From: Flavobacteriales bacterium
GTDB taxonomy: Bacteria; Bacteroidota; Bacteroidia; Flavobacteriales_D; Crocinitomicaceae
Assembly: GCA_009926125.1 (NCBI GenBank)
Contig: RFPM01000004.1
Span: forward strand, 1-58,889
DNA length: 58,889 nucleotides
Direction: 5' to 3'
The notes beneath the pieces are model-generated. The model was given only the letters and a program-made list of their open reading frames with translations, was not told where the DNA came from and searched no databases. Below, in pieces: positions 6,433 to 49,209 of the stretch (position 1 is its first letter; each line of letters opens with the position of its first letter). The translations under genes and the position numbers were made by a program.

Positions 6433-7472
6433 TGACTGATTTTGATCCAAATGGCGTTGGTATTGCAAATGGAAATATTTTTGGTTTCCCCTGCACTGAA
6501 GAGGATGCAGATATTGTAATTATTCCAATTCCTTGGGATGCAACTGCATCTTATGGAAAAGGAACGAGTAATGGTCCAAAAATTATTTTAGATGCTTCAA
6601 CACAACTAGATTTTTTTCATCCTGATCTTGAAAAAGCGTATGATACTAAAGTGTTTATGTCACAGATTTCCAAAGAATGGAAAGAACTAAATGATAATTT
6701 AAGCGCTAAAAGTGTCAGCTATTTAGATTACTTGGAAAAACATGGAGAAAGTGCAGCGAAAGAAAAATATATCACAGAAATAACAGAAATAAATAAAACA
6801 CAAGTTGCTTTAAAAGAAAATTTAAAAGAGCGTTGTCTAAAGCTAATTTCTACTGGTAAAATCCCTGCTGTTCTTGGTGGTGAACATTCTACACCACTTG
6901 GATTAATTGAAGCTTTAAATGAAAAATATTCAAGTTTTGGAATCTTACAAATTGATGCTCATGCAGATTTAAGAACTGCCTACGAGGGTTTTACGCAATC
7001 GCATGCAAGTATTATGTATAATGTACTCTCAAGTTGTGAGAACATGCATAAATTAGTACAAGTTGGCATCAGAGATATTTCAGATGCAGAAGTACTTTTG
7101 TCACAAAAAGACAATCGCATTGAAACATTTTACGATTGGGATATAAAAAATCAAGCATACGCAGGTAAAACTTGGAGGGAACAAGTAAATGAAATTATTC
7201 AGCAACTGCCAGAAAACGTATATATTTCCTTTGATATCGATGGACTTAACCCTTCACTGTGTCCAAATACTGGAACTCCTGTAGCTGGCGGATTTAATTT
7301 GCAAGAAATCTCTTATCTATTTGCGAAAGTTGTTGCTTCAGGTAAAAAAATTATTGGTTTCGACTTAAATGAAGTTGCGCCAGGAAAAGAAGGTGATTGG
7401 GATGCAAATGTTGGAGCAAGAGCATTGTGGGAGCTTGTTTGTATTACTGAAAAAAGTAGAAGATCACACTAA
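6432..7472 (+). CDS. Ureohydrolase family protein (formimidoylglutamase-like)
   Basis: Metal-binding motifs GGEHST, DAHADLR, SFDIDGLNPSLCPNTGTPVAGGF. Start overlaps the murQ stop (TAATG). Confidence 0.85.
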   Translation: MTDFDPNGVGIANGNIFGFPCTEEDADIVIIPIPWDATASYGKGTSNGPKIILDASTQLDFFHPDLEKAYDTKVFMSQISKEWKELNDNLSAKSVSYLDYLEKHGESAAKEKYITEITEINKTQVALKENLKERCLKLISTGKIPAVLGGEHSTPLGLIEALNEKYSSFGILQIDAHADLRTAYEGFTQSHASIMYNVLSSCENMHKLVQVGIRDISDAEVLLSQKDNRIETFYDWDIKNQAYAGKTWREQVNEIIQQLPENVYISFDIDGLNPSLCPNTGTPVAGGFNLQEISYLFAKVVASGKKIIGFDLNEVAPGKEGDWDANVGARALWELVCITEKSRRSH

Positions 7473-7491
7473 TTTTAAGACAATCCACTCT

Positions 7492-7989
7492 ATGAAACTA
7501 AAGTTAAGTGCGTTTATTGGAATAATTTTGGGACTCGTTTTCTTAATTAGTGTTTCCCAAATAATTCTAGGGGAATTGTTTCCTTGGTTAAATTTTACAA
7601 TTGCCTCTGGTCTTCCATTAATTATATTCCTACTTTCCTTTTTAATTCAAGATAAAAAAATTATAACCTTAAAAGTAGTTTACAGCTTTATTATTCTTCA
7701 ATTTTTTATAGCCATTTATTTTTTAATAAATCCTGTTTACCTCAAGTTGTACTGGAATTTACTTTTTATTCCGACAATACTTTTTATTTTTTTTCTCTTT
7801 TTAGAATTTGCCCTACGAAAAAACAAATTGGTTTGCAACATCTTAAAAATCTGTATTGCGGTTTTAGGGATTTCAATTCTTAGTAACCTATTATTCACCA
7901 ACTATTTTATTGACTTAATAATTAAAGGATCTATTTTTTTAATTATTGTGCTTTTAATATCATCAGAAAATAAAGTTGAGCAGAAATAG
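7492..7989 (+). CDS. Small hydrophobic membrane protein, function unknown
   Basis: ORF 7369-7989 is open, but its 5' part overlaps the ureohydrolase; ATG at 7492 follows that stop and gives MKLKLSAFIGIILGLVFLISVSQ... with several TM-like segments. Confidence 0.65.
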   Translation: MKLKLSAFIGIILGLVFLISVSQIILGELFPWLNFTIASGLPLIIFLLSFLIQDKKIITLKVVYSFIILQFFIAIYFLINPVYLKLYWNLLFIPTILFIFFLFLEFALRKNKLVCNILKICIAVLGISILSNLLFTNYFIDLIIKGSIFLIIVLLISSENKVEQK

Positions 7990-15660: not shown

Positions 15661-17571
15661 TTACTTTTTCTCATTTACTTCTTCAAAATCAACATCTGTA
15701 ACTTCATCTTGTGGATTTGTTTCAGCACCTGAATCTGAGGAGTTTCCAGCATCTTGAGCTCCCTGAGGATTTGCTGCATTATACATATCTTGAGAAGCTG
15801 CTTGGAATAGCGTATTTAATTTCTCCATTGCAGGCTCAAGATTTTCGATGTTACGCGCTTCAAATTCCTTTTTCAATTCAGCTAAAGCATCCTCGATAGG
15901 TTGTTTTTTATCTACTGGAATTTTATCTCCGTATTCTTTCAATTGACGCTCTGTTTGAAATATCGCAGAATCTACTTTATTAATCAATTCAACTTCTTCA
16001 CGTTTTTTATTGTCTGATTCAGCATTTGCTTCTGCTTCTGCTTTCATACGCTTAATTTCTTCATCAGATAGTCCAGAAGAAGCTTCAATCTTAATTGATT
16101 GCTCTTTTCCTGTTCCTTTATCTTTTGCAGATATATTCATTATTCCATTCGCATCAATATCAAATGTTACTTCGATTTGAGGAACACCTCTTTGTGCTGG
16201 TGGAATATCTGTTAATTGAAAGCGGCCTAAAGTTTTGTTATCATTTGCCATCGGTCGTTCTCCTTGTAAAACATGAATGTCGACACTTGGTTGATTATCC
16301 GAAGCCGTTGAAAACGTTTCGGACTTCTTTGTAGGTATTGTTGTATTTGCATCAATAAGCTTTGTTAAAACTCCACCCATTGTTTCAATACCAAGTGATA
16401 AAGGAATAACATCTAACAACAATACATCTTTTACATCTCCTGATAAAACTCCACCTTGAATTGCAGCACCAACAGCAACAACTTCATCGGGATTTACACC
16501 CTTAGAAGGTGCTTTTCCAAAAAAGCGTTCAACAGCATCTTGTATGATTGGAATTCGTGTTGATCCACCAACTAAAATTACTTCGTTGATGTCTTTTGGC
16601 GTTAACCCTGCATTCTTTAATGCTTTACGACATGGTTTGATAGTACGTTCAACTATTTCTGAGATTAATTGCTCAAATTTAGAACGCTGTAAAGTGCGTA
16701 CTAAGTGCTTTGGAATTCCATTTACCGGCATGATATACGGCAAATTGATTTCCGTAGAAGTTGTTGATGACAATTCGATTTTAGCTTTCTCAGCAGCTTC
16801 TTTTAATCGTTGTAATGACATTGGATCTTGACGTAAATCTACACCCTCATCTGACTTAAATTCATCTGCTAGCCATTGAATAATCGCATCATCTACATCA
16901 TCTCCACCTAAGTGCGTATCACCATCAGTAGAAAGAACTTCGAAAACACCATCTCCTAATTCTAAGATAGAAACATCATGTGTTCCACCACCAAAGTCAA
17001 AAACAACTATTTTTTGATCGATGCCTTTTTTATCTAAACCATAAGCCAAAGCAGCTGCAGTTGGCTCATTAATTATTCTTTTTATTGTTAATCCAGCAAT
17101 TTCTCCAGCTTCTTTCGTTGCCTGACGTTGTGCATCGTTAAAATAAGCCGGAACAGTTACAACAGCTTCTGTTACTTCTTGACCTAAATAATCTTCAGCT
17201 GTTTTCTTCATTTTTTGAAGAATCATCGCAGAAATTTCTTGAGGTGAATAAAGACGATCATCTATTTTAACTCGCGGTGTATTGTTGTCACCCTTCACTA
17301 CAGTGTAAGGAACTCGTCCAATTTCTTTTTTACATTCATCAAAACTAGACCCCATCATTCGCTTTATGGACGAAATTGTTTTCTCTGGATTTGTAATTGC
17401 CTGACGTTTTGCTGGATCACCAACTTTTCGTTCACCGCCTTCTACAAATGCAACAACTGAAGGAGTTGTTCTTTTACCTTCTGAGTTCGATATAACTACC
17501 GGCTCATTTCCTTCCATAACTGAAACACATGAATTTGTTGTGCCTAAGTCGATTCCTATTATTTTTCCCAT
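15661..17571 (-). CDS. dnaK: Molecular chaperone DnaK
   Basis: [52 protein letters not shown]. Confidence 0.99.
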
Positions 17572-17703
17572 TTTTAAATTAATTTTTCAATTTTTACAAT
17601 TTCACATTTTCAATTTATATGCCACAGCAATTTTATGCGAGAAAAATGACAAATTGATCTAATCAGTAATAAATAAAGTGTCTTTTTGTCAGTCAATGTG
17701 ACA

Positions 17704-18927
17704 TTATTCGATTATAAACCGAATGATTTTGTTTATTGAAGGGACTTTTAAATAATACAATCCTGGAAGACAGGAAGATGAAGTTTTTATTGATTGTGAA
17801 TCATTTAAGTAAAAGCCATTAATTGCTTGTCCCAGCTGATTGTAAACAAAAATCTGCTTATCTGGAACTGGAGTTGAAATAAAAATCAAATCTCCAGCTT
17901 TTAAACTTGTTGGATAAACATAACTTTTACTTGTGTTTTCAAATAATTCTGATTGATATTCTTCTAAGCGGACAACACCACTATTATAGGTCCCCAACCA
18001 TTTTACTGTATTTGATTCGCTAGCAATTGAAAGAATATGATTTTCGGGTAAATCAGAATTTTCTGTAGAATATTGCAGCCAATTATCTCCATTTTTAATA
18101 AGAACTCCATAAGAATCTGTACCCATAAATATTCTTTCAATTGCATCTATAGCGATTGCATTTATACCATTTGTTGGCAAAGGTGAATTACTCATATTAA
18201 AGCGCAGCCATGGTCCTCCAAATCCTTGATCATACACCAAGCCCTGAGCCGGTGTAGCAAACCAAGGGTGATTTGTAGCATCTACAACTATTCCAAGAGC
18301 GGAATTGTCAGGAAGGCCAGATTGAACAATACTAAGAATTGTGAGTTGATTGTCAGACGAAAAATAATTTAAACCGCCATTAATCGTTCCAATAAATTTT
18401 TCATTTTGCTGACCAATAGCAATTGAAGTAATATTATTTGTGAGTAAATTATGACTTAGGACATCCCAAGTATACCAATTCACACGATCAAACATTGCAA
18501 TTCCTTCTGAGGTAGCACACCATATATTATTTTGAGTGTCTATTGCAATGCCTCTTACTAAATAATCTGGTAAGCCCGAGTTAGTTGGAGTGTAATTCTC
18601 CCAATTTAATCCATCAAAAGAATACAAACCACCTTGCATTGTTCCAACCCAAACTATTGTATCATTTTCGATACAAATAGCACGAATATTATCATCGAGA
18701 AGAGGTGAATTTTCTGAAGTATAAACAACCCAATTTACACCATCAAATCTTGCTAGACCATCATCAGTGCCAAACCATTTAAATTGATTTTGAATAGCAA
18801 TACAACGTACAGTATTAAAGGGTAAAGGGGAATTTGAACTAGAATAAGACGTTATTACAGGTTGTCCATAAATAAAAAAGCTCCCATAACATAAAAGTAC
18901 TGAGAGCCATTTATAAAAACAATTCAT
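17704..18927 (-). CDS. Secreted propeller-repeat protein with T9SS type A-like C-terminal domain
   Basis: Signal peptide; repeats of W[FV]GT..GL.RFDGVNWVVYTxxNSPLxxxxIRAIxI (two-component-regulator-propeller type); C-term YVYPTSLKAGDLIFISTPVPDKQIFVYNQLGQ...LPGLYYLKV...IIRFIIE. Confidence 0.85.
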   Translation of the reverse strand: MNCFYKWLSVLLCYGSFFIYGQPVITSYSSSNSPLPFNTVRCIAIQNQFKWFGTDDGLARFDGVNWVVYTSENSPLLDDNIRAICIENDTIVWVGTMQGGLYSFDGLNWENYTPTNSGLPDYLVRGIAIDTQNNIWCATSEGIAMFDRVNWYTWDVLSHNLLTNNITSIAIGQQNEKFIGTINGGLNYFSSDNQLTILSIVQSGLPDNSALGIVVDATNHPWFATPAQGLVYDQGFGGPWLRFNMSNSPLPTNGINAIAIDAIERIFMGTDSYGVLIKNGDNWLQYSTENSDLPENHILSIASESNTVKWLGTYNSGVVRLEEYQSELFENTSKSYVYPTSLKAGDLIFISTPVPDKQIFVYNQLGQAINGFYLNDSQSIKTSSSCLPGLYYLKVPSINKIIRFIIE

Positions 18928-21029
18928 TAATCTTTTATAAAACGTTTAGTGTACGTTTTTCCTTCAAAAGTAAGATTCATTAGGTAAATTCCTTTTGAGA
19001 AATTTTTAATGTCAATCGCTTTTTTAACAAATCCATTTAGATTCTTTAAAGACTGAGATTGAATAGTTTTTCCAACAATATCAATAATGTCTATTGTGAC
19101 ATATGCATCTTTTCTAGTATTGAAATTTACTTCGAATTGACCATTGTTAGGATTAGGAAAAAGAGAAATAGAATTTTTAAATGCTACATCTTCACCAAGA
19201 GCTGCACATGATTCAACCACTGCAGACACCTCAACACGTGGACTAGTACATGTGCCATTTTCAGTTAAAATCTCCCAATCATATAAATAATAGTAATAAG
19301 AAGCACCAGCAGACGCACCTGTTATGGATAATAATCCTGGTAATTCATAAGGGTAGATTGCAGAATTATTATTACGATATAAACCAGATACAGTCATTGC
19401 TGTAACACCTAATCTCAAGTTACTATCAGCAGGGACAGAAAAATTTAAATTTACCCTACTTGCACCTGCTGGAACGGCAAGCATTAAAGATTGAAGTGTA
19501 GCACCTGTACTATTTTGAAGAGCGAAAGTTATGTTACCAGCATTTTGAGAATATATTAATGCAGACTTAAGCGTGAAGTTTTGTAAGGCATTGAAAACAT
19601 TGTATTGAATTGACGTAGAATAACCACCACCACCAATACCATTTGTATGTGGCTCCGCGTAAGTTGAATCCATATATGTATCTGTATTATCAACAAAGTA
19701 AGAAGTTGTAGCATTCAAAACTGGAGTTGTAAAACTTGAACCTGTTCCAAGCATGTTATTTTGAGCGTCATACCAAGAAATAGTTCCTGTTCCATTAGCA
19801 GTTAGTGTCATTGCTCCTTCTACACAAACTGTATCGCCAGAAACTGATGGTGCATTTGGAATCACACTATTTATAATAAATGGAGCAGAAGATGTTGTTC
19901 CACAATAATTTGTTACTGTACATGAATAGCTTCCTGCTTGAGAAACAGTAATGTTTTGAGTTGTATCTCCAGTTGACCACAAGAAAGAACTTCCTGCAGT
20001 TACACTTAAAGAAACACTTCCACCAGAACATAAGTTATTAGATCCGCTTGATGATATTTTAGGGGCTTGAGTAGAATTAGCTTGATGTTGCATTGTTAAT
20101 GTTACTGGTACAGCAGTAAAATTATTATCATCTCTTTCTTCTTGGAAATAATTATTCTTATCAACTTCCATAACGATATAATAATTACCATTACAAGTGT
20201 TTTCTGGAACATTAATCCACATACCATCTAGATGCTTTCCATAAACATCCGTCCAACCAGAAGAAATCCCTTGCTCTGTAACAGAACAATTGTAAGACCC
20301 TCCTCCTAAATTCCAATTTGGAAAATCAACGTTCTGTAAAATAGTGCCTTGATTATAAATTGTATTTTCATCTCGGCAATGACCATAATAAGTACTTCCA
20401 GTTGATGTACCACATTGACCATAATCCATTAAACAAAAACCTATTTTAGCTCCTTCACCAACAATTGGCCATGATAAGGGATTTGGATCTGAAGTTGGAA
20501 TTCTTAGCGTCATTACAGCCCAGTCATTCACATGATTGTGGCCATGAGATGGATGATAAGCCATACTCCCTGTCCAACGATCAACGTAGCTCATTTGAGT
20601 ACTATCTTTTTTATAAATACGTTGATTTAACAATTGCTTCGGATTAATTATTCCATTTGGACAAGTAAAATCTCCTGTTGCAGCTACGTTAAAAATAGTA
20701 TCAGAACCACAAATAAAAGCTCTTTTTCCGTTTGCATCTACACCTCTTACTGTAAATGATCCATGACCAATATTTGGTGTTGAACCAGTTACGCGTAATC
20801 TTCCGTCGTCAGGCCCTTGTCCATTATAATTAGTGCCAGCATTTGATTGTGGATATTCAGTCCAACCGCCATTCGCAATACCTTTCCAAGAGGCCGTAAT
20901 ATCTGGTAAAAGTAAACAGTTTTGCGTTCCATCATCACACACACAAGAAGTGGCATTTGTTGTCGTACATTGAGAATAGAGATAATTTACATTAAGAGCA
21001 AGAGCAATTAATAGAGTAGAAATTTTCAT
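18927..21029 (-). CDS. Lysyl-oxidase-like copper amine oxidase with Ig-like segments and T9SS type A sorting domain
   Basis: YHPSHGHNHVNDW (Cu His cluster), AKIGFCLMD and TEQGISSGWTDVYGKHLDGMWINVPENTCNGNYYIVMEVDKNNYFQEERDDNNF align with lysyl oxidase; C-term ISLFPNPNNGQFEVNFN...KGIYLMNLTFEGKTYTKRFIKD is a T9SS type A CTD. Confidence 0.85.
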   Translation of the reverse strand: MKISTLLIALALNVNYLYSQCTTTNATSCVCDDGTQNCLLLPDITASWKGIANGGWTEYPQSNAGTNYNGQGPDDGRLRVTGSTPNIGHGSFTVRGVDANGKRAFICGSDTIFNVAATGDFTCPNGIINPKQLLNQRIYKKDSTQMSYVDRWTGSMAYHPSHGHNHVNDWAVMTLRIPTSDPNPLSWPIVGEGAKIGFCLMDYGQCGTSTGSTYYGHCRDENTIYNQGTILQNVDFPNWNLGGGSYNCSVTEQGISSGWTDVYGKHLDGMWINVPENTCNGNYYIVMEVDKNNYFQEERDDNNFTAVPVTLTMQHQANSTQAPKISSSGSNNLCSGGSVSLSVTAGSSFLWSTGDTTQNITVSQAGSYSCTVTNYCGTTSSAPFIINSVIPNAPSVSGDTVCVEGAMTLTANGTGTISWYDAQNNMLGTGSSFTTPVLNATTSYFVDNTDTYMDSTYAEPHTNGIGGGGYSTSIQYNVFNALQNFTLKSALIYSQNAGNITFALQNSTGATLQSLMLAVPAGASRVNLNFSVPADSNLRLGVTAMTVSGLYRNNNSAIYPYELPGLLSITGASAGASYYYYLYDWEILTENGTCTSPRVEVSAVVESCAALGEDVAFKNSISLFPNPNNGQFEVNFNTRKDAYVTIDIIDIVGKTIQSQSLKNLNGFVKKAIDIKNFSKGIYLMNLTFEGKTYTKRFIKD

Positions 21030-21053
21030 TGTTTATATTATTAGTATTTATTT

Positions 21054-21061
21054 CAAATATA
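21054..21061 (-). promoter_or_regulatory. TATATTTG -7-like element upstream of the LOX-like/propeller operon
   Basis: Reverse strand TATATTTG 24 nt before the ATG at 21029. Confidence 0.45.
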
Positions 21062-21103
21062 AATTTAATCTTTTATTTCTCTTACAACAAAAAAAAAAAG
21101 AAA

Positions 21104-22147
21104 TTATATTTTTCTCAGGTTAAATTCTTTAAAAAGTTGTTCTGCGGCAATAAATGCTGATAGCTTTCCATTTGCAACTTTTTGCTCAGCAATTAAGAAT
21201 TTATTTTTCCATTTATTATTCCCAAAAAAATCTTGCTTTAAAAGGTTTGAAAGACATTCTTTTAAAAGAGTAATTTCCTGTAATCTTCGATTTTCATCAA
21301 GCCATGCACTTAGGACTATTTTATTAAAATAATTTTCAGTTGCTTCCAAAACTTCATGTAAACCGACTCCTGACACACTACTTGAAATTAGAGCTTGAGT
21401 AGTCCAAGTACTTGGTTTACTTGGAAATAAATGAAGTGCATTTGCATATTGACTTCTAGCATTCTTGGCATTTTGCAAATTATCTCCATCAGCCTTTGTA
21501 ATAACCAATAAATCTGCCATTTCCATTATCCCTCTTTTAATTCCTTGAAGTTCGTCTCCAGCTCCAGACAACATTAAAAGTAAAAAGAAATCAACCATTG
21601 AATGAACTACAGTTTCAGATTGACCAACTCCAACTGTTTCAATAAAAATAATATCAAAGCCAGCAGCTTCACAAAGTAAAATGGCTTCACGTGTATTGAG
21701 AGCTACACCACCCAAATTATTTCGCGTTGCACTTGGACGAATAAATACATTCTCTTGTTGTGAGAGCCAAGGCATTCGTGTTTTATCTCCTAATATACTT
21801 CCGCCAGAAACATTCGAAGAGGGATCAATTGCCAAAACAGCCAATTTCAATCCTTTTTCTAAAATTATTTTTCCAAAAGCGTCAATAAAAGTACTTTTTC
21901 CAACACCTGGAACACCTGTTATTCCAATTCTCCAGGCTTTCTTATTGAGATCCGAACAACTTTTAATTAACTTATTGGCTTCTTTTCTATCCTCTGAAAC
22001 CTGACTTTCTACTAAAGTAATAGCTGAACTTAAAGCCCCACGATTTCCGCTTATTAGTGCAGGAAAGAGCAAAGCAGCTGACAAACTTTGTTTGTGTGTT
22101 TTTCGTTTGTAAAACCAATCATCCAACTGTTTTTGACTAGGCATCAA
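21104..22147 (-). CDS. meaB: Methylmalonyl-CoA mutase-associated GTPase MeaB/ArgK family
   Basis: GITGVPGVGKSTFIDAFG P-loop, AIDPSSNVSGGSILGDKTRM, FIETVGVGQSE, ADLLVITKADGDN. Confidence 0.95.
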   Translation of the reverse strand: MMPSQKQLDDWFYKRKTHKQSLSAALLFPALISGNRGALSSAITLVESQVSEDRKEANKLIKSCSDLNKKAWRIGITGVPGVGKSTFIDAFGKIILEKGLKLAVLAIDPSSNVSGGSILGDKTRMPWLSQQENVFIRPSATRNNLGGVALNTREAILLCEAAGFDIIFIETVGVGQSETVVHSMVDFFLLLMLSGAGDELQGIKRGIMEMADLLVITKADGDNLQNAKNARSQYANALHLFPSKPSTWTTQALISSSVSGVGLHEVLEATENYFNKIVLSAWLDENRRLQEITLLKECLSNLLKQDFFGNNKWKNKFLIAEQKVANGKLSAFIAAEQLFKEFNLRKI

Positions 22148-26780: not shown

Positions 26781-29700
26781 TTATTTCATTAATGTAACAT
26801 TTCCTTTTGTAATTGATTTTAACCCATTGTAACAAGTAACATCCAGATAAAAATCGTAAACATCTGGATCTAATTTTTTACCTCTAAAAGTACCATCCCA
26901 TCCAATTTGTGGATTTTCTGACTCAAATACCAATTCTCCCCAACGATCAAAAATCCTAAAAATAATTTTTTCAATAAAAATTCCACGAACAAATAAAACA
27001 TCATTGTTATCGTCACCATTTGGAGAAAAAGCATTTGGAATAAAGACATAGGGTTCTTCGCAGATAATTTCATACACCTTAATTTGTACAGTATCTGAAC
27101 GTGTGCAAATACCATCCGAAACTGTTAATGTAAAAATAGTGTTTTCTTGAATAAGGGCATTTGTTTCCTGCGAATTAGGTGATGATAAACCCGTAGTTGG
27201 CGACCAAGAATAATTTGGAAGACTATTCGGTAAACCACTTAAAACAACTGTTGCACCAGGAACGACAATATTTTCCGATGCACTTGCAAGTACTGATGAA
27301 GGATTAATAACAGAAACTAAAATAAAAATAGAATCTTCTACAAAACAGCCATTGGAAGATGCTGCTGATAGATAATAATACTGTGAAAAAAGAGGTTGAA
27401 CAACAATCGAACTTGAGGTATTTGAACCAATAATCCCAGCAATTGGAGTCCAAACATAATTAAAAGAAGTTGTAGGATTTGTATTTGTTGCTGTCAATGT
27501 TGTTTGATCTCCCAAGCATAAATTATTTCCGCCATTTAATATTAAATCGGAACTAGTGAAAGAAAGTAATACACTGTCAACAAGTGCGCATTCAGAATTT
27601 GAAACTTGCACATAATAATAACCAGCTTGTGGATCATTTAATACAAAAAGAGAATCAGAAAAATCAAAATTTAAGGTGTCTGTAAAAAGAGAATTTGTGG
27701 ACCAAATAAAATTACTTGCTGTTCCATTTGTATAAGAAATTAAGTTAATTGGAACTGGAGAACATAGGTCAATTCCATCGATTAAATTTAATTGAATATT
27801 TTCATAAATAGTAATCGTAATCTGAGCAGTATCTGTTATATCGCAATCATTATCTGTAACGTATAAAAATACAGTATAAACTCCAGGAATTGAATAGGTG
27901 TAACTTGGCGAAAATGTTGTGGAGTCATAGTTGTTATTTCCAAAATCCCATAAATATGTGTCGTTTTCAGTAGAATTATTTTGAAAAGTTATAGGGATTT
28001 CCTCGCAAGATGATGTGGAACTAGCAGTAAAATTCGCTATTGGAATTACATCTGTACTAAATTTAAAAACAATGTTATTACAATTAGAACTGTTATTTGC
28101 TGCTGACCACGCTCCTGGAGTAGTTGGAAAATCGCTGTAACCACCACAACCGCCGCAAACAGATTGATAAACGACGCCATTTTTATCGAAACGAGAAGTG
28201 CCGCCGTCTACATGTTCCTTTGCTTGACTTCCGCCCAAGTAAGAACCATATAAAAGCCCTTGAAAATCTCTTTTTATAACAATAAGATAAAAATCAAAGC
28301 CATTTGGAGAAATTCCTTGAAAAGCATCAGAGGTTACTGGCATTCCGCTTAACAATGTATTTTGTAGAATATTAGCTCCCCATCCAGAAACATAGATATT
28401 ACCGCAAATATCAACAAGAAAAGCAGAGGGTGAAATATGTATTGATGTCGAACCATTACCAAATACCGTAGACGCAATATTGCTTGTTAAATTTGAATTT
28501 AACTCAATTATAAAGTTACTACTATTCGGATTTGAAAAAGTAGCATTAACAACAGGAAAAGTTCCGCCAACTGATTGACCTAAAACATAAATATTATTGT
28601 TTTTATCAATTTCAACAAAAAAAGCTTGGTCGTAATTATTTTTTCCTAAATAAGTTGCTTGTTGAATTCCTAAACCAGTGGAATTTAATTTAACGACAAA
28701 TCCATCCGTTATTCCACCATTATAGGTTGGTGAATAAGCTCCAACAGTTCCCGGTAAATCAGTAGATTGGGTTCCCCCTGAAAAAACAATTTGATTTGCC
28801 GTATCAATTTTAACAGAATAACACGCATCATCTAATGAACCACCATAATAAGTTGAAAATAACAAGGATTGAAAATTTGAAGCTAATTTAAAAACTATTC
28901 CATCTTGCCCACCGGCATTTGCACTTTGAAAAGCATTGATAATAGGAAAGTCAGTTGAACGAGAAGTTGATGCAATTAGAATATTGTTGTTTTCATCCAG
29001 CATTATTTCACCTCTAAACTGATCTCCATAATTAGAAGATAAAGCAGAATATGCAGCAACTGAATTATAGGGCAAAGAAAGAGGATTGTAATTTACACCG
29101 TCATTTCCACTGCCACCAACAAATGTTGAGTTTAATAGATTATGTCCATTAGAACTAATTTTTGAAACATAAATATCTGTTCCTTGGTTAGAAAAAGTGA
29201 TACCGTTATATGTAAACTGGGCTGCAGTTCCTCCTGAATGTAACTGTTGAAAAGAATTACTTGTAATAGGAAAATCTAAACTTGATGTTGCGCCCATCAA
29301 ATAAACATTATTACTCTGATCACAAATTAAACTATGAACTGTTTCAGTTCCTTGCGTATTATCCCCACCTCCAATAAATGTTCCCCAAAGCATTGCGCTT
29401 CCATCGGAAGAATATTTAGAGACGAATACATCTGAAATACCGTATCCGACTGCACCTGCCACAAAATTTGATTGAATATCATAAGCCAAAACATCAGGAG
29501 CGGGATAATCATTTCCATAAATTGTTCCTGCGGTGTATGCAGTTCCATCATTTCCGTAGGTGGCAGTCATTCCAAAATTATCAGAATTTGCACCATTATA
29601 CGTTGCAAAAACTAATATAGGATCAATAATTAATGGAGAGTTAGGATCATAATTTCCAAGGTCAAACCGGACTTCATTGTCTTTTAAAATAAAGCGACAT

Positions 29701-30356
29701 TTTACTTCTTTCCGTTGTCCATTTATTAACTGATAAGCGACAGGTTTATCCTCAATTACTTTCCCTAAATCAGTTTCTAAAATCAAATTTCCCTTGTTGT
29801 CGATCTGAATCTTTTTCTGACCGCTATAGTCAAGAATTATTTGAGATGGATCACTATTTTTCTGAACTATAAATTCATATTTAACCTCATTATTTATCCC
29901 TGAAATTTTAAAATCAATTCCTTGATAGAAATTCTTTAAAATTGCTTCAGAATAAGAATGAACCTCAGATGTCCATTTTTTTTGGTCATTTCCTTTAAAA
30001 AAATTGAAATAACTGCTTGAAGGATCTTTTTTTTCAATGTTAACTACTTCATTAGAACCTCTAAAATTCAGATGAACAAGCGTTTGACTTACATCTTGCC
30101 CCTTGTAATTAGGTTCAGCCATTGCATGTAACTTGTGCATTGTCGAATAATCTTGAAGATGAAAAATAAGTTTGTGTTGCTGCACCCAAAGTTTTCCTCC
30201 CGGCATGTTTGAGCGAAATAAAACTCCCTCTGGCCATTGACCTTTATTTTCAAGTAATAATTGCCCTTTATTTTTTGAAAGTATTTCAGTAGATAACTGC
30301 GCCTGCAATTTAAGGCAAAACACAAAGAAAAACAGACAAATTCCAAGGACTTTCAT
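26781..30356 (-). CDS. Large secreted protein: SBBP-type repeats, PKD-like domain and gliding-motility-associated (T9SS type B) C-terminal domain
   Basis: Signal peptide; repeated LxSTxxGGSxxD blades; ASSTSSCEEIPITFQNNSTENDTYLWDFGNNN (PKD); C-term FIPNAFSPNGDDNNDVLFVRG...FRIFDRWGELVFESENPQIGWDGTFRG. Confidence 0.92.
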   Translation of the reverse strand: MKVLGICLFFFVFCLKLQAQLSTEILSKNKGQLLLENKGQWPEGVLFRSNMPGGKLWVQQHKLIFHLQDYSTMHKLHAMAEPNYKGQDVSQTLVHLNFRGSNEVVNIEKKDPSSSYFNFFKGNDQKKWTSEVHSYSEAILKNFYQGIDFKISGINNEVKYEFIVQKNSDPSQIILDYSGQKKIQIDNKGNLILETDLGKVIEDKPVAYQLINGQRKEVKCRFILKDNEVRFDLGNYDPNSPLIIDPILVFATYNGANSDNFGMTATYGNDGTAYTAGTIYGNDYPAPDVLAYDIQSNFVAGAVGYGISDVFVSKYSSDGSAMLWGTFIGGGDNTQGTETVHSLICDQSNNVYLMGATSSLDFPITSNSFQQLHSGGTAAQFTYNGITFSNQGTDIYVSKISSNGHNLLNSTFVGGSGNDGVNYNPLSLPYNSVAAYSALSSNYGDQFRGEIMLDENNNILIASTSRSTDFPIINAFQSANAGGQDGIVFKLASNFQSLLFSTYYGGSLDDACYSVKIDTANQIVFSGGTQSTDLPGTVGAYSPTYNGGITDGFVVKLNSTGLGIQQATYLGKNNYDQAFFVEIDKNNNIYVLGQSVGGTFPVVNATFSNPNSSNFIIELNSNLTSNIASTVFGNGSTSIHISPSAFLVDICGNIYVSGWGANILQNTLLSGMPVTSDAFQGISPNGFDFYLIVIKRDFQGLLYGSYLGGSQAKEHVDGGTSRFDKNGVVYQSVCGGCGGYSDFPTTPGAWSAANNSSNCNNIVFKFSTDVIPIANFTASSTSSCEEIPITFQNNSTENDTYLWDFGNNNYDSTTFSPSYTYSIPGVYTVFLYVTDNDCDITDTAQITITIYENIQLNLIDGIDLCSPVPINLISYTNGTASNFIWSTNSLFTDTLNFDFSDSLFVLNDPQAGYYYVQVSNSECALVDSVLLSFTSSDLILNGGNNLCLGDQTTLTATNTNPTTSFNYVWTPIAGIIGSNTSSSIVVQPLFSQYYYLSAASSNGCFVEDSIFILVSVINPSSVLASASENIVVPGATVVLSGLPNSLPNYSWSPTTGLSSPNSQETNALIQENTIFTLTVSDGICTRSDTVQIKVYEIICEEPYVFIPNAFSPNGDDNNDVLFVRGIFIEKIIFRIFDRWGELVFESENPQIGWDGTFRGKKLDPDVYDFYLDVTCYNGLKSITKGNVTLMK

Positions 30357-33987: not shown

Positions 33988-36900
33988 ATGCGTTTCCTCT
34001 TTCTACTATTTGTTTTAGTTGCTTTTAAAAGCAATGCTTCGCATGTTATGGGAGGAGAAATTACCTATAAATGCATTGGTGGAAATACCTACATTTTTGA
34101 ACTAACTTTTTACCGCGATTGCAATGGTTCTGATGTTACTATTAGCCCTGAAGTTTTAAGAGTTTGGAACCACCCTACTCTAACTTCAATTTCAATTCCT
34201 TTTATTTCAAGAGAAGATATTTCGCCAACTTGCTCCCCCGTTTCTGGAGGTCCAAGTCCCTTACTTTGTGGAACTAATGCAAATGGAGGAAATGGAATTG
34301 GAGCAATCGAGAAAATTATTTACAGAAGTGATCCTATTACTATTGCAGGAATTCCACCAAGTCAAGGTTGGGCTTTTACCTACGAAAATTTCTCACGAAG
34401 TAATACAATAACAAATATTACAAACCCCTCTACTTATGGAATAACTTTGGTTGCAAAAATATATTCCAATCCAAATTCTACTGCAAACGGATGCAGCGAC
34501 TCCTCTCCACTTTTCCTTCAAAAACCATCTTTTGTTCATTGTGCAAGTAATGAATACCAATATAATCCAAATGCTGTAGACCCCGATTTAGATTCGCTTT
34601 CTTTTGAATTCGGAATTCCTTATAATAATTTTCCTACAGGAGTTTATAATCCGCCATTAAATCCAATACCCGTTCCTTTTGAACCGAACTTTTCATTTCT
34701 CAGTCCAACTCCAAATACAATTATAAATCCTGCAAATTTTGCAGCTGAAATAAACAATCAAACTGGAGAATTAAAATTTACAAGTGTCAATATTGGAAAT
34801 TATGTAGTTAAAATTCTGGTCAAATCATATCGTCAAGGAATTCTTATTTCTGAGGTTGAACGAGAAATGCAATTGGTTGTTTTTGCTTGTAATAATTTAA
34901 ATTCTGCTCCAATTATAAGCGCACCATTTCCCGGTAATTCTTTTGAGGCAACGATCAACGCGGGTGATCCAATTTCATTTAATATCCAAGCAATTGACAA
35001 TGATTTACTTCAAAATGGTAGCCAACAAACACTTTCTCTAACAGCTTCTGGTCCTATTTTTGGGACTAATTTTACACAAAATACTGGCTGCAATATTATT
35101 CCCTGCGCAACTTTAGATAATGGAATTCCGATTTCGGGACAACAAAACGTTTCCGCTCAATTTAATTGGCAAACATCTTGCGACCATTTAGTTAATGCTT
35201 ATGGAACTGTTTCTGATGAAGTAAGTTATAATTTTGTCTTTAGAGTACAAGACGATTATTGCCAAGTTCCAAAAGTTACCTACAAAACTGTAACAATTAA
35301 GCTCTTAAATCAGGGTGTAATTCAAGCACCAAAAATTTCTTGTATTCAAACCAACAATGATAATAGTTTAACTATTTTTTGGTCTTCAGTATTAGATCCT
35401 TCAAGTTCATTTATATCCTACAAAGTATATTCTGTTCAAAATGGCTTACTTGCAACTATTAATAACATTAATACAACACAATTTACTACAACATCCGTTA
35501 ATTCAGCACAAGATTATTACATTGCTGTACAATCGGGTTGTGGAGGAAATACTCTAAAATACAGCGATACAATTTCTAATATTCATCTTGACTTAGTAAA
35601 TCCAATTAATGGAACTGCTGTTTTGCAATGGAATATGCCCTACTCTACACAGTTACCAAATTTTAATGCTTATTACTATTTATATAGGGAATTCCCAACA
35701 GGATTTTTCTCATTTATGGATAGTGTGCCATACAACACACTAACATATGTTGATACTATTACTGTCTGCGAAGAATTTATTAGATACAGGGTAAATCTAG
35801 CCACAACAAGCTGTAATTTCACATCCAATCGGCCAGGCGAAGTATTTTCTGATATGATTACACCTTCTATTCCCACAATATATTCAGTTAGCTTTGACAC
35901 ATTAAACAGTAATATAACAATTAACTGGAATCAAAATCCTCTTTTAGATACTTATGGATACGTTGTTTATATAGTTGGAGCCAATGGTTTTCCTATTGAA
36001 TTAGACACTGTTTTCGGAATAGGTGCTACTAGTTATTCCTATCCAGCTCCGAGTGGACAGGGACCATTTTCTTATTCAGTGGCTGCTTTTGATTCTTGTT
36101 TTACAAGTTCTATTCCAATTACCTATCAAACATCAGGAAAAAGTCCAATACATTCTAGTTTTATTCTTTCAAGTAGTGTCAGCATGTGTGATGAACTTAC
36201 GCAATTAAGTTGGACATCCTATTTTGGAACTTCTATCAATTATTATAGAATCTGGGTGAAAACAAATCAATATTGGGTGCTATTAGACAGCATAAGTTCT
36301 AATACATTTTTAACTTCTGTTGAAGGTGGAGAAAATTATTGCTTTATTGTCGAAGCAATGTTACAAAATGGCTATTCAGCATTTTCAAATCCTTCTTGTT
36401 TTGTCGTTCCTCAACCACTACAACCAGCTTTCCATTATTTTAAACTGGCAACAATTAATAACAAAACCATAGAGCTTTATGATTATTGTGATGCCTCAGT
36501 TGGCGTCAAAGAAATAGTATTTGAACGCAAAAATCCTACTAGCTTATTATTTGAAGAAATTGGAAGAGCAAATTCAATCACTGATGTAACATTATTTGTA
36601 GACAATCAAGCTACGACAAGTATTAATGCTTGGGAATACAGAACAAAATACATAGATAGTTGCGGGAATGACGGAAATTATGCAAATTCTAATCAAACAA
36701 TTTTTGTTCAGGGCACAACAGATGAATACGACATGATAAATCAAATTAATTGGTCGCCTTATTCAGGATTTGATGGCCCAATTACTGAATACCAAGTATT
36801 TAGAGGAGTAAATGGCGTATTTCAGCAAATTGCAACAGTTCCAAACACTCAATTCTCACTTATCGATGATGTAGGATTAGTTGAAAGTAATGGTGAAATC

Positions 36901-37266
36901 TGTTACCATATTGAAGGGATTGAAGGATTAAATTCTTATAATTTAGCTGAAGTTAGTCGATCAAATGATTTTTGTTTTATTTATTCTCCATTAATTTTTA
37001 TTCCAAATGCCTTTACTCCAGATGGTTTAAATCCAATTTTTAAACCTATTCTATCAAATGTATCCACAAATAATTATAGCCTAAAGATTTTTGATCGCTG
37101 GGGAAGTGTTATTTTTGAATCAAACGATCCGAATTTAGGTTGGGATGGAACGATTAGTAAATCTGGAGAACAAGCAACAAATGATTTATTTCTGTACTAC
37201 ATCGTTTTGGAAGACCAATACGAAAAGCAGTACATTCGGAAAGGAACGATAACAATGGTCCGTTAA
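33988..37266 (+). CDS. Large secreted gliding-motility-associated C-terminal domain protein (T9SS type B) with fibronectin-like segments
   Basis: Signal peptide then SHVMGGEITYKCIGGNTYIFELTFYRDCNG; C-term IFIPNAFTPDGLNPIFKP...LKIFDRWGSVIFESNDPNLGWDG. Confidence 0.92.
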   Translation: MRFLFLLFVLVAFKSNASHVMGGEITYKCIGGNTYIFELTFYRDCNGSDVTISPEVLRVWNHPTLTSISIPFISREDISPTCSPVSGGPSPLLCGTNANGGNGIGAIEKIIYRSDPITIAGIPPSQGWAFTYENFSRSNTITNITNPSTYGITLVAKIYSNPNSTANGCSDSSPLFLQKPSFVHCASNEYQYNPNAVDPDLDSLSFEFGIPYNNFPTGVYNPPLNPIPVPFEPNFSFLSPTPNTIINPANFAAEINNQTGELKFTSVNIGNYVVKILVKSYRQGILISEVEREMQLVVFACNNLNSAPIISAPFPGNSFEATINAGDPISFNIQAIDNDLLQNGSQQTLSLTASGPIFGTNFTQNTGCNIIPCATLDNGIPISGQQNVSAQFNWQTSCDHLVNAYGTVSDEVSYNFVFRVQDDYCQVPKVTYKTVTIKLLNQGVIQAPKISCIQTNNDNSLTIFWSSVLDPSSSFISYKVYSVQNGLLATINNINTTQFTTTSVNSAQDYYIAVQSGCGGNTLKYSDTISNIHLDLVNPINGTAVLQWNMPYSTQLPNFNAYYYLYREFPTGFFSFMDSVPYNTLTYVDTITVCEEFIRYRVNLATTSCNFTSNRPGEVFSDMITPSIPTIYSVSFDTLNSNITINWNQNPLLDTYGYVVYIVGANGFPIELDTVFGIGATSYSYPAPSGQGPFSYSVAAFDSCFTSSIPITYQTSGKSPIHSSFILSSSVSMCDELTQLSWTSYFGTSINYYRIWVKTNQYWVLLDSISSNTFLTSVEGGENYCFIVEAMLQNGYSAFSNPSCFVVPQPLQPAFHYFKLATINNKTIELYDYCDASVGVKEIVFERKNPTSLLFEEIGRANSITDVTLFVDNQATTSINAWEYRTKYIDSCGNDGNYANSNQTIFVQGTTDEYDMINQINWSPYSGFDGPITEYQVFRGVNGVFQQIATVPNTQFSLIDDVGLVESNGEICYHIEGIEGLNSYNLAEVSRSNDFCFIYSPLIFIPNAFTPDGLNPIFKPILSNVSTNNYSLKIFDRWGSVIFESNDPNLGWDGTISKSGEQATNDLFLYYIVLEDQYEKQYIRKGTITMVR

Positions 37267-47181: not shown

Positions 47182-49209
47182 ATGAAAAAATACCTTGGAT
47201 TGATTCTTTTTTTACTTCAACTAAATTTTTTATTTTCTCAAATCATCAATCATGAAGATGTCGTGAAAGTTAACTTTTCGCTAGAACAAAAAAATTGTGA
47301 AGCTTTTATTGTAGCGAAAATCACAATAATTCCAGGTTGGCATATTAATTCATACAAACTTCCCAAAGATTCGTATGCTATTCCAAGTGCGATAAACATC
47401 AATAAGACAACTAAACTTACTGTTAAAGAAATAATAGAACCTAAGCCGATACAATACATAGACGAAGATTTGGGTGATATGCAGAGTTACCACAAGGGTT
47501 CACTAACTATGAAACGAAGAGTTTTAATCAACTCAAATATTGATTTTAAAGTTTCCGGTGTATTCTCCTTTCAAGTTTGCGATGAAGCTGGAAAATGTTT
47601 GATGCCCCACGAATACCCTTTTTCCCTTAGTGTTAAAGGATATAAATTAGCTGTTGAGAAAGACACTATATCCGAAAAAAAAGTTGATGCTTTAACATCA
47701 AATAATGGAACGGAAAAAGTCAAAGAAACTATTCCACCTTCAAAAAAAATACCTGAACCTAAAAAATCAATGTGGCTTATTTTCATTATTTCCTTCTTAA
47801 GTGGTTTTGCTGCCCTTCTCACTCCATGCGTTTTTCCAATGATTCCAATGACGGTAAGTTTTTTCACAAAAAAAAGTAAATCAAAGGCAGATGGAATTAA
47901 AAACGCCTTGTTATACGGCATTTCAATTATTGCGATTTATGTTCTTTTAGGTACAATTGTAACTACAATCTTTGGCCCTTCAGCATTAAATGCACTATCT
48001 ACAAATGTTTGGTTCAACTTGCTTTTCTTTGTATTACTGGTCGTATTTGCTATTTCATTTTTAGGAGCTTTTGAAATCATGCTGCCCAACTCTTGGCTAA
48101 ACAAAGCTGATAAAGCATCAGATAAAGGAGGATTTATTGGAATCTTTTTTATGGCCTTAGCTCTTGCGCTAGTATCCTTCTCATGCACAGGGCCAATTGT
48201 TGGTACTTTATTAGTTGAATCTGCAACAATAGGCGGAATTGCACCATTTGTTGGAATGTTTGGGTTCTCATTGGCCTTGGCTATTCCATTTACTTTATTT
48301 GCTGCTTTTCCAGGATGGATGAATGCACTTCCTAAATCTAGTGGTTGGTTAAATACTGTTAAAGTTTTTCTCGGGTTTTTGGAACTTGCGTTGGCTTTCA
48401 AATTTCTTTCAAATGCAGATTTAGTTGTGCAAGGTCATTTCTTGGAAAGAGAATTATTCCTAGCGATTTGGATTGGATTATTTGCTGTACTAACAATTTA
48501 TCTTTTTGGTTTTATTCGACTCCCTCATGATAGCCCAACTGAAAAACTATCTGTATTTAGGACTTTATTAGCCAGTACATGTTTAGTGTTTGTCATCTAC
48601 TTAATTCCAGGTCTGTGGGGAGCTCCTCTAAAATTAATCAGTGGCTTTCCTCCACCACTTTCTTATAGCGAATCTCCAAATGGAATTGGATCTTCAGAAA
48701 ATACGAATTCTCATTCCGAAAATAATGACATGCATCTCGGACCTCAAAACATCATGGTTTTTCATGATTTAGAAAAAGCAGAAGCATATGCAAAAGAAGT
48801 AAACAAACCTCTTTTTGTCGACTTTACAGGTCATGCATGTGTCAACTGTCGAAAAATGGAGGAAAAGGTCTGGGGTGAGCCGGGTATCCTTGAAATACTG
48901 CGAGATAAAATGGTTATTGTTTCGTTATATGTTGATGAAAAAACAGCCCTGCCTGCTTCCGAACATAAGGAATTGGAATATGCACCGGGTAAAAAAATGA
49001 AAATTACTCAAATTGGTCACAAATGGAGTTATTTGCAAACTACTCGATACAAAAGTAATACACAGCCTTATTACCGTTTATTGGGACCGCAGAATGAAGA
49101 TTTAGACATTGGGTCGGCAGACTACGAAAACCATGGCAATGCTACTGATTTTAAAGCCTGGCTTGAAAAAGGTTTAGAAGAATATAAAAAGGCAGATACT
49201 AAAAACTAA
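47182..49209 (+). CDS. Protein-disulfide reductase DsbD-like (alpha domain, 8-TM core, thioredoxin domain)
   Basis: N-term alpha domain with FQVCDEAGKCLMPHEYPF; TM region FLSGFAALLTPCVFPMIPMTVSFF and LVSFSCTGPIVGTLLVE; C-term FVDFTGHACVNCRKMEEKVW. Confidence 0.93.
   Translation: MKKYLGLILFLLQLNFLFSQIINHEDVVKVNFSLEQKNCEAFIVAKITIIPGWHINSYKLPKDSYAIPSAININKTTKLTVKEIIEPKPIQYIDEDLGDMQSYHKGSLTMKRRVLINSNIDFKVSGVFSFQVCDEAGKCLMPHEYPFSLSVKGYKLAVEKDTISEKKVDALTSNNGTEKVKETIPPSKKIPEPKKSMWLIFIISFLSGFAALLTPCVFPMIPMTVSFFTKKSKSKADGIKNALLYGISIIAIYVLLGTIVTTIFGPSALNALSTNVWFNLLFFVLLVVFAISFLGAFEIMLPNSWLNKADKASDKGGFIGIFFMALALALVSFSCTGPIVGTLLVESATIGGIAPFVGMFGFSLALAIPFTLFAAFPGWMNALPKSSGWLNTVKVFLGFLELALAFKFLSNADLVVQGHFLERELFLAIWIGLFAVLTIYLFGFIRLPHDSPTEKLSVFRTLLASTCLVFVIYLIPGLWGAPLKLISGFPPPLSYSESPNGIGSSENTNSHSENNDMHLGPQNIMVFHDLEKAEAYAKEVNKPLFVDFTGHACVNCRKMEEKVWGEPGILEILRDKMVIVSLYVDEKTALPASEHKELEYAPGKKMKITQIGHKWSYLQTTRYKSNTQPYYRLLGPQNEDLDIGSADYENHGNATDFKAWLEKGLEEYKKADTKN

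Follow-up and report, generated by a model that had tools for sequence, protein, structure and literature searches.

A divergent lysyl oxidase-family protein with a predicted type IX sorting tail and a linked propeller gene in a Flavobacteriales bacterium

Introduction

Lysyl oxidases (LOX) have been known in bacteria since 2015, with Bacteroidetes among the carriers surveyed (PMC4448552), and for the sole purified archaeal LOX the native function was described as "cryptic" (PMC6452851). The question of what such proteins do in prokaryotes is raised again by a stretch of 58,889 nucleotides from a Flavobacteriales bacterium (contig RFPM01000004.1; hereafter the window). One of its open reading frames had been read, from the letters alone, as a LOX-like enzyme with apparently complete copper and lysine tyrosylquinone (LTQ) motifs, exported by the type IX secretion system (T9SS). 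Does this protein belong to the family, could its active site work, and what might it do outside the cell?

Gene and domain layout

The features of the locus, with the evidence for each in brackets, are the following.

18927..21029, minus strand: LOX-family protein of 700 aa with signal peptide, LOX domain, Ig-like segments, a module without Pfam match and a T9SS type A tail (ORF list, Pfam)
20973..21029, minus strand: predicted signal peptide, residues 1-19, mature N-terminus Gln20 (...YLYS/QCTTT) (by eye from the sequence)
20070..20972, minus strand: predicted LOX catalytic domain, residues 20-320 (profile alignments)
20532..20558, minus strand: predicted copper site YHPSHGHNH, residues 158-166 (alignment to LOXL2, orthologue conservation)
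20445..20447, minus strand: K195, counterpart of the LOXL2 LTQ residue Lys653 (alignments, orthologue conservation)
20241..20243, minus strand: Y263, counterpart of the LOXL2 LTQ residue Tyr689 (alignments, orthologue conservation)
19680..20066, minus strand: Ig-like segments, residues 322-450, comprising a sub-threshold Ig_2-like segment (344-386) and Ig_7 (391-449) (Pfam)
19200..19679, minus strand: module of about 160 aa without Pfam match, residues 451-610 (Pfam, relatives)
18936..19163, minus strand: T9SS type A sorting domain, residues 623-698 (PF18962, TIGR04183; HMM)
18925..18929, minus strand: TAATG, the LOX stop codon overlapping the partner start codon (sequence)
17704..18927, minus strand: partner gene, 407 aa, with signal peptide, seven-bladed Reg_prop propeller and T9SS-type C-terminal domain (HMM, model, Foldseek)

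The reading frame exists as the original prediction placed it, and its strand, which had not been given, is minus. The motifs also lie where they had been reported: YHPSHGHNH spans Y158-H166, AKIGFCLMD spans 194-202 with K195, and DVYGKHL contains Y263. The Ig-like segments and the sorting tail claimed for the protein are both borne out above the Pfam cut-offs, by Ig_7 (E 7e-11) and by the type A domain (E 4e-14). The tail reaches 53.1 bits with PF18962 (cut-off 27) and 42.1 bits with TIGR04183 (cut-off 23). Residues 320-640, approximately, form a stretch that has also been found in other long open reading frames of the order. A mature N-terminus at Gln20 agrees with the Bacteroidetes Q-rule (PMC5837995), and the enzyme is probably bound to the cell surface via its type A tail. 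In a search of the same genome for T9SS machinery, a true PorZ was found above cut-off; searches for SprA as a T9SS marker were silent in all control genomes. A Bacteroidetes promoter consensus occurs in the window no more often than expected by chance, and no site was seen upstream of the LOX gene. Elsewhere in the window, 26781-30356 (minus) and 33988-37266 (plus) encode two large proteins of several domains that carry CHU_C T9SS tails (DUF7948 and PKD; fn3).

Relationship to the lysyl oxidase family

Membership of the LOX family, as originally claimed, is supported by HMM, profile-profile and PDB-profile alignments. The PF01186 search that the original prediction had called for gave 30.3 bits against a cut-off of 20.4. 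The match covers residues 245-312 and profile positions 128-195 of 204, that is, the Tyr half only; the His/Lys half is left unmatched by Pfam itself, and the matches of the orthologues (21 of 21 orthologous domains) lie equally in the Tyr half. The orthologues came from two sources, a set of 84,980 named species genomes and the relatives of the genome to which the window belongs. A single-sequence PDB search with the window protein did not find LOXL2, and bridging relatives were built in for that reason; the profile then comprised the window protein, its orthologues, L023, L068, L078 and L079, the last two being distant Bacteroidota LOX (27-30% identity) from a sample of the phylum. Against the PDB, this bridging profile matched one sequence, LOXL2 (5ze3, E 7.4e-5), on which the segment with HxHxH and Lys653 and the segment with Tyr689 are both aligned and colinear; the His/Lys segment alone aligns to LOXL2 with just 2.8 bits. 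A CARDB match weakly overlaps the PF01186 match, and the possibility that the latter is a CARDB look-alike was rejected, as LOXL2 is the only PDB entry that the bridging profile recovers.

Further links lead in the same direction. In hhalign, comparison with a canonical LOX group from the same genome and its relatives gave a probability of 96.7% and paired the HxHxH, K and DxY columns; this group itself matches 5ze3 at E 1e-26. L079 has matches among Streptomyces proteins that carry the annotation "lysyl oxidase family protein". A joint alignment from the window protein through to LOXL2 keeps HxHxH, K, FC, C, DxY and E..NN unbroken, and the ordered motif set, even when loosened, arose in none of 200,000 composition-preserving shuffles of the protein. 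The AlphaFold2 model of the LOX domain (pLDDT 44) is too poor to interpret and its fold search was uninformative. Taken from the alignments, the window protein is supported as a divergent member of the LOX family.

Compared with human LOXL2 (5ze3) and animal LOX, the window protein has the same HxxHxHxH, LTQ Lys and Tyr, FC...C pair, DxY and E..NN in the same order, but identity is low, LOXL2 His652 has no counterpart, about 32 extra residues lie between the Lys and the Tyr, and Ig and T9SS modules stand in place of the SRCR domains. The prokaryotic LOX in the survey of Grau-Bove et al. 2015 (PMC4448552) and the active LOX of Haloterrigena turkmenica (PMC6452851) likewise have a LOX domain with the His core and the LTQ residues. 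The surveyed proteins are, however, mostly of simple architecture, and a T9SS tail or partner gene was not found described in these two papers. The first His, reported absent from the surveyed bacterial LOX (PMC4448552), is present in the window clade. The Streptomyces proteins WP_003957865.1 and WP_127436696.1, linked via L079, carry HxHWH, KEAFC and GDTY in the same order; on the other hand, they lack the first His at the H159 position, and no Ig segment, T9SS tail or propeller partner is present in the stretches fetched. The window LOX therefore appears to be a new member of a known family, in which the T9SS architecture and the obligate partner described below are what is new. In the open-access literature, which is what the search covered, no description of a T9SS-tagged Bacteroidetes lysyl oxidase or of a propeller partner was found.

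Active-site residues and selection

Six site residues (H159, H162, H164, H166, K195 and Y263) and 11 cysteines are invariant in 40 distinct orthologous domains, which are 60-100% identical to that of the window and come from several families. By alignment, H162, H164 and H166 correspond to LOXL2 H626, H628 and H630, and H159 to H623. In LOXL2, LTQ formation has been shown to require H626, H628 and H630, whereas H623 and H652 mutants make under half, H652Q among them (PMC9694262). The description of the copper and LTQ motifs as complete thus stands for the LTQ pair and for the copper triad with the first His. It does not extend to all the conserved His residues: His652, beside the LTQ Lys, is replaced by Ala194, which is invariant in the clade. 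A His652 counterpart is absent also from the Streptomyces and L077 sequences and present in the canonical LOX of the same genome (L001); His652 is a feature of the human members and does not define prokaryotic LOX. Another difference is the spacing from K195 to Y263, 68 residues vs 36 in LOXL2. It had also been proposed that a model placing Lys195 and Tyr263 far apart would speak against a LOX; this criterion is not valid, because in the precursor structure of LOXL2 itself 16.6 A separate Lys653 from Tyr689.

The substitution by Ala194 and the longer Lys-Tyr spacing are what might be expected if the domain were a catalytically dead LOX fold kept for adhesion or binding. Against this, the six site residues are invariant across several families and the domain appears, from codon comparison, to be under strong purifying selection (dN/dS vs L022 of 0.083 in the LOX domain and 0.155 in the remainder of the protein), which makes loss of catalysis very unlikely. 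A DsbD-like thiol:disulfide interchange protein is encoded in the same window as the cysteine-rich LOX domain, at 47182-49209 (plus).

A linked propeller gene

The gene overlapping the LOX stop codon encodes a protein composed of a propeller (about 23-325) and a T9SS-type C-terminal domain (about 337-406). Its Reg_prop repeats reach 45.7 bits with PF07494 (cut-off 20.4), and its tail falls just below the TIGR04183 cut-off (22.5 vs 23). The structure model (pLDDT 85.6) shows a single propeller, for which the top Foldseek matches are BT4663 (a heparin-sensing ectodomain), related sensors and PorZ, a carbohydrate-binding component of the T9SS (PMC8545088). The partner propeller is related to the glycan-binding propellers of PorZ (5m11) and BT4663 (4a2l/4a2m), with which it shares the Reg_prop fold, and PorZ also has a T9SS-type C-terminal domain; both of them, however, have two propellers instead of one. 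Identity with PorZ itself was rejected: NF052228 gives 96.6 bits against a cut-off of 260, there is one propeller, and the true PorZ lies elsewhere in the genome.

The partner, which the original prediction had not mentioned, is an obligate, tightly linked neighbour of the LOX gene. In most orthologous loci, those of families f6, f10 and f11 included, the spacing of the two genes lies between -8 and +6 bases. One locus has a spacing of +41 (L066), probably due to start-codon choice, and another of +635 (L013), where the LOX reading frame is broken. At this last locus (about 7196-7826) the LOX frame stops early and the tail is in another frame; the near-identical L014 reads through (931 aa). 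Other neighbours of the pair vary: some loci keep them, while in many they are replaced. A sample of 399 genomes, spread over 70 genera, contained the LOX domain in 50 cases; the partner, at 176 bits or more, was found in 48 genomes, each of which is LOX-positive. The partner is thus present in 48/50 LOX-positive vs 0/349 LOX-negative genomes (Fisher's p 4e-60, a value inflated by relatedness and by physical linkage, because adjacent genes are lost together), and no partner score exceeds about 100 bits in the LOX-negative ones. As for the two exceptions, in G006 the contig ends just past the LOX gene, the start of the partner being visible in the matching locus L008, and in G051 the LOX frame is cut short (286 aa). 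Partner identity has drifted to about 35% while gene order and near-overlap persist, and this persistence is a stronger argument than Fisher's p.

Within the genus, the distribution is patchy, about 31 of 86 genomes being carriers when fragmentary genes are counted. Such patchiness, together with the H2O2 that LOX chemistry releases, could be accommodated by an enzyme serving mainly as a peroxide generator against competitors; the neighbours, however, are housekeeping genes with no immunity-like or defence context, and this is the least probable of the roles considered here. The pair lies between dnaK and meaB in the window (15661-22147) and in L013-L020, its orientation being inverted between them. 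An empty site was sought in 20 LOX-negative relatives, but in none was dnaK found within about 1.5 kb of meaB, which left no clean case for comparison. No relatives of the window LOX were found on viral contigs, and no match to its LOX domain on plasmids.

Proposed activity of the pair

The reading preferred here, to which a probability of about 0.68 is given, is that of an exported copper/LTQ amine oxidase with a propeller partner that serves for target binding or enzyme docking. Sec would carry the LOX protein into the periplasm, where it would fold, take up copper and have K195 and Y263 auto-oxidised to the LTQ cofactor; the type IX system would then deliver it to the cell surface or the medium. 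Its targets there would be primary amines, either lysyl side chains or the amino groups of polymers on the surface or in the environment, which it would convert to aldehydes with release of H2O2 and ammonia, and the co-secreted propeller would provide specificity by binding the target or docking the enzyme. From the sequences, we infer enzymatic activity, LTQ formation, a substrate and physical contact between the partners. A distant archaeal LOX has been proved to be an active, BAPN-sensitive amine oxidase (PMC6452851).

Among orthologues, identity is 60-94% in the LOX domain (about 77-94% within the family) vs 34-95% in the partner, and a slow LOX with a fast partner might be expected of a fixed chemistry served by an adapting recognition protein. 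The same contrast suggests a narrow chemistry and not a drifting scavenger. It weighs against a nutritional role, in which a promiscuous surface amine oxidase would free ammonia from free or polymer-bound amines while the propeller captured polymers such as amino-sugar glycans or peptides, with no cross-linking. T9SS cargos are often degradative and a heparin sensor is among the nearest solved relatives of the propeller, both of which favour deamination for nutrition, as does the relaxed specificity of the characterised archaeal LOX for small amines (PMC6452851). No aldehyde catabolic genes lie beside the pair, and a nutritional role is regarded as possible, if doubtful.

A different use is suggested by analogy with animal LOX and by the probable surface attachment of the enzyme: lysines on the cell's own surface or matrix proteins would be oxidised, and the resulting aldehydes would link covalently to amines; the propeller would act as a scaffold or be itself a substrate. 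The partner, however, has no invariant lysine in sets of 21 and 41 sequences. Lys177 and Lys278 are conserved at 90% or more in the former, and no lysine reaches that level in the latter. The partner was therefore rejected as a conserved lysine substrate, and cross-linking of the cell's own surface seems unlikely. More specific, and rather improbable, is the proposal of a dedicated two-component surface system in which a T9SS-delivered LOX and its own propeller would tie a bacterial coat or matrix together through covalent bonds derived from lysine; if true, it would be a prokaryotic counterpart of animal extracellular-matrix cross-linking.

For the preferred exported amine oxidase with its binding or docking propeller, the obligate, overlapping partner narrows the function: the enzyme's site of action is predicted to be outside the outer membrane, and the ligand of the partner should point to the substrate. 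The partner is in this sense a first testable lead to the role of bacterial lysyl oxidases.

A second lysyl oxidase in the same genome

The canonical LOX of this genome (G000:C119:1276-1731; locus L001:382-2406) scores 105-108 bits with PF01186 and has HxHxH, K and Y. In the tree it groups with human LOXL2 (92/91), apart from the window LOX. That a single bacterium has two quite dissimilar LOX types, of which one groups with the animal enzyme, bears on the question of how LOX entered animals. Of the other distant sequences, L079 (523-1923), from Bacteroidota, has its LOX joined to a proprotein-convertase P domain (PF01483) and shows no T9SS tail match. Within the genus, a few genomes have relatives of the second LOX, and L077 also contains one. 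At L001:2342-2716, a T9SS-like tail lies out of frame with the LOX reading frame, an apparent frameshift or assembly error; the relatives L080, L082 and L083 read through to 793-818 aa.
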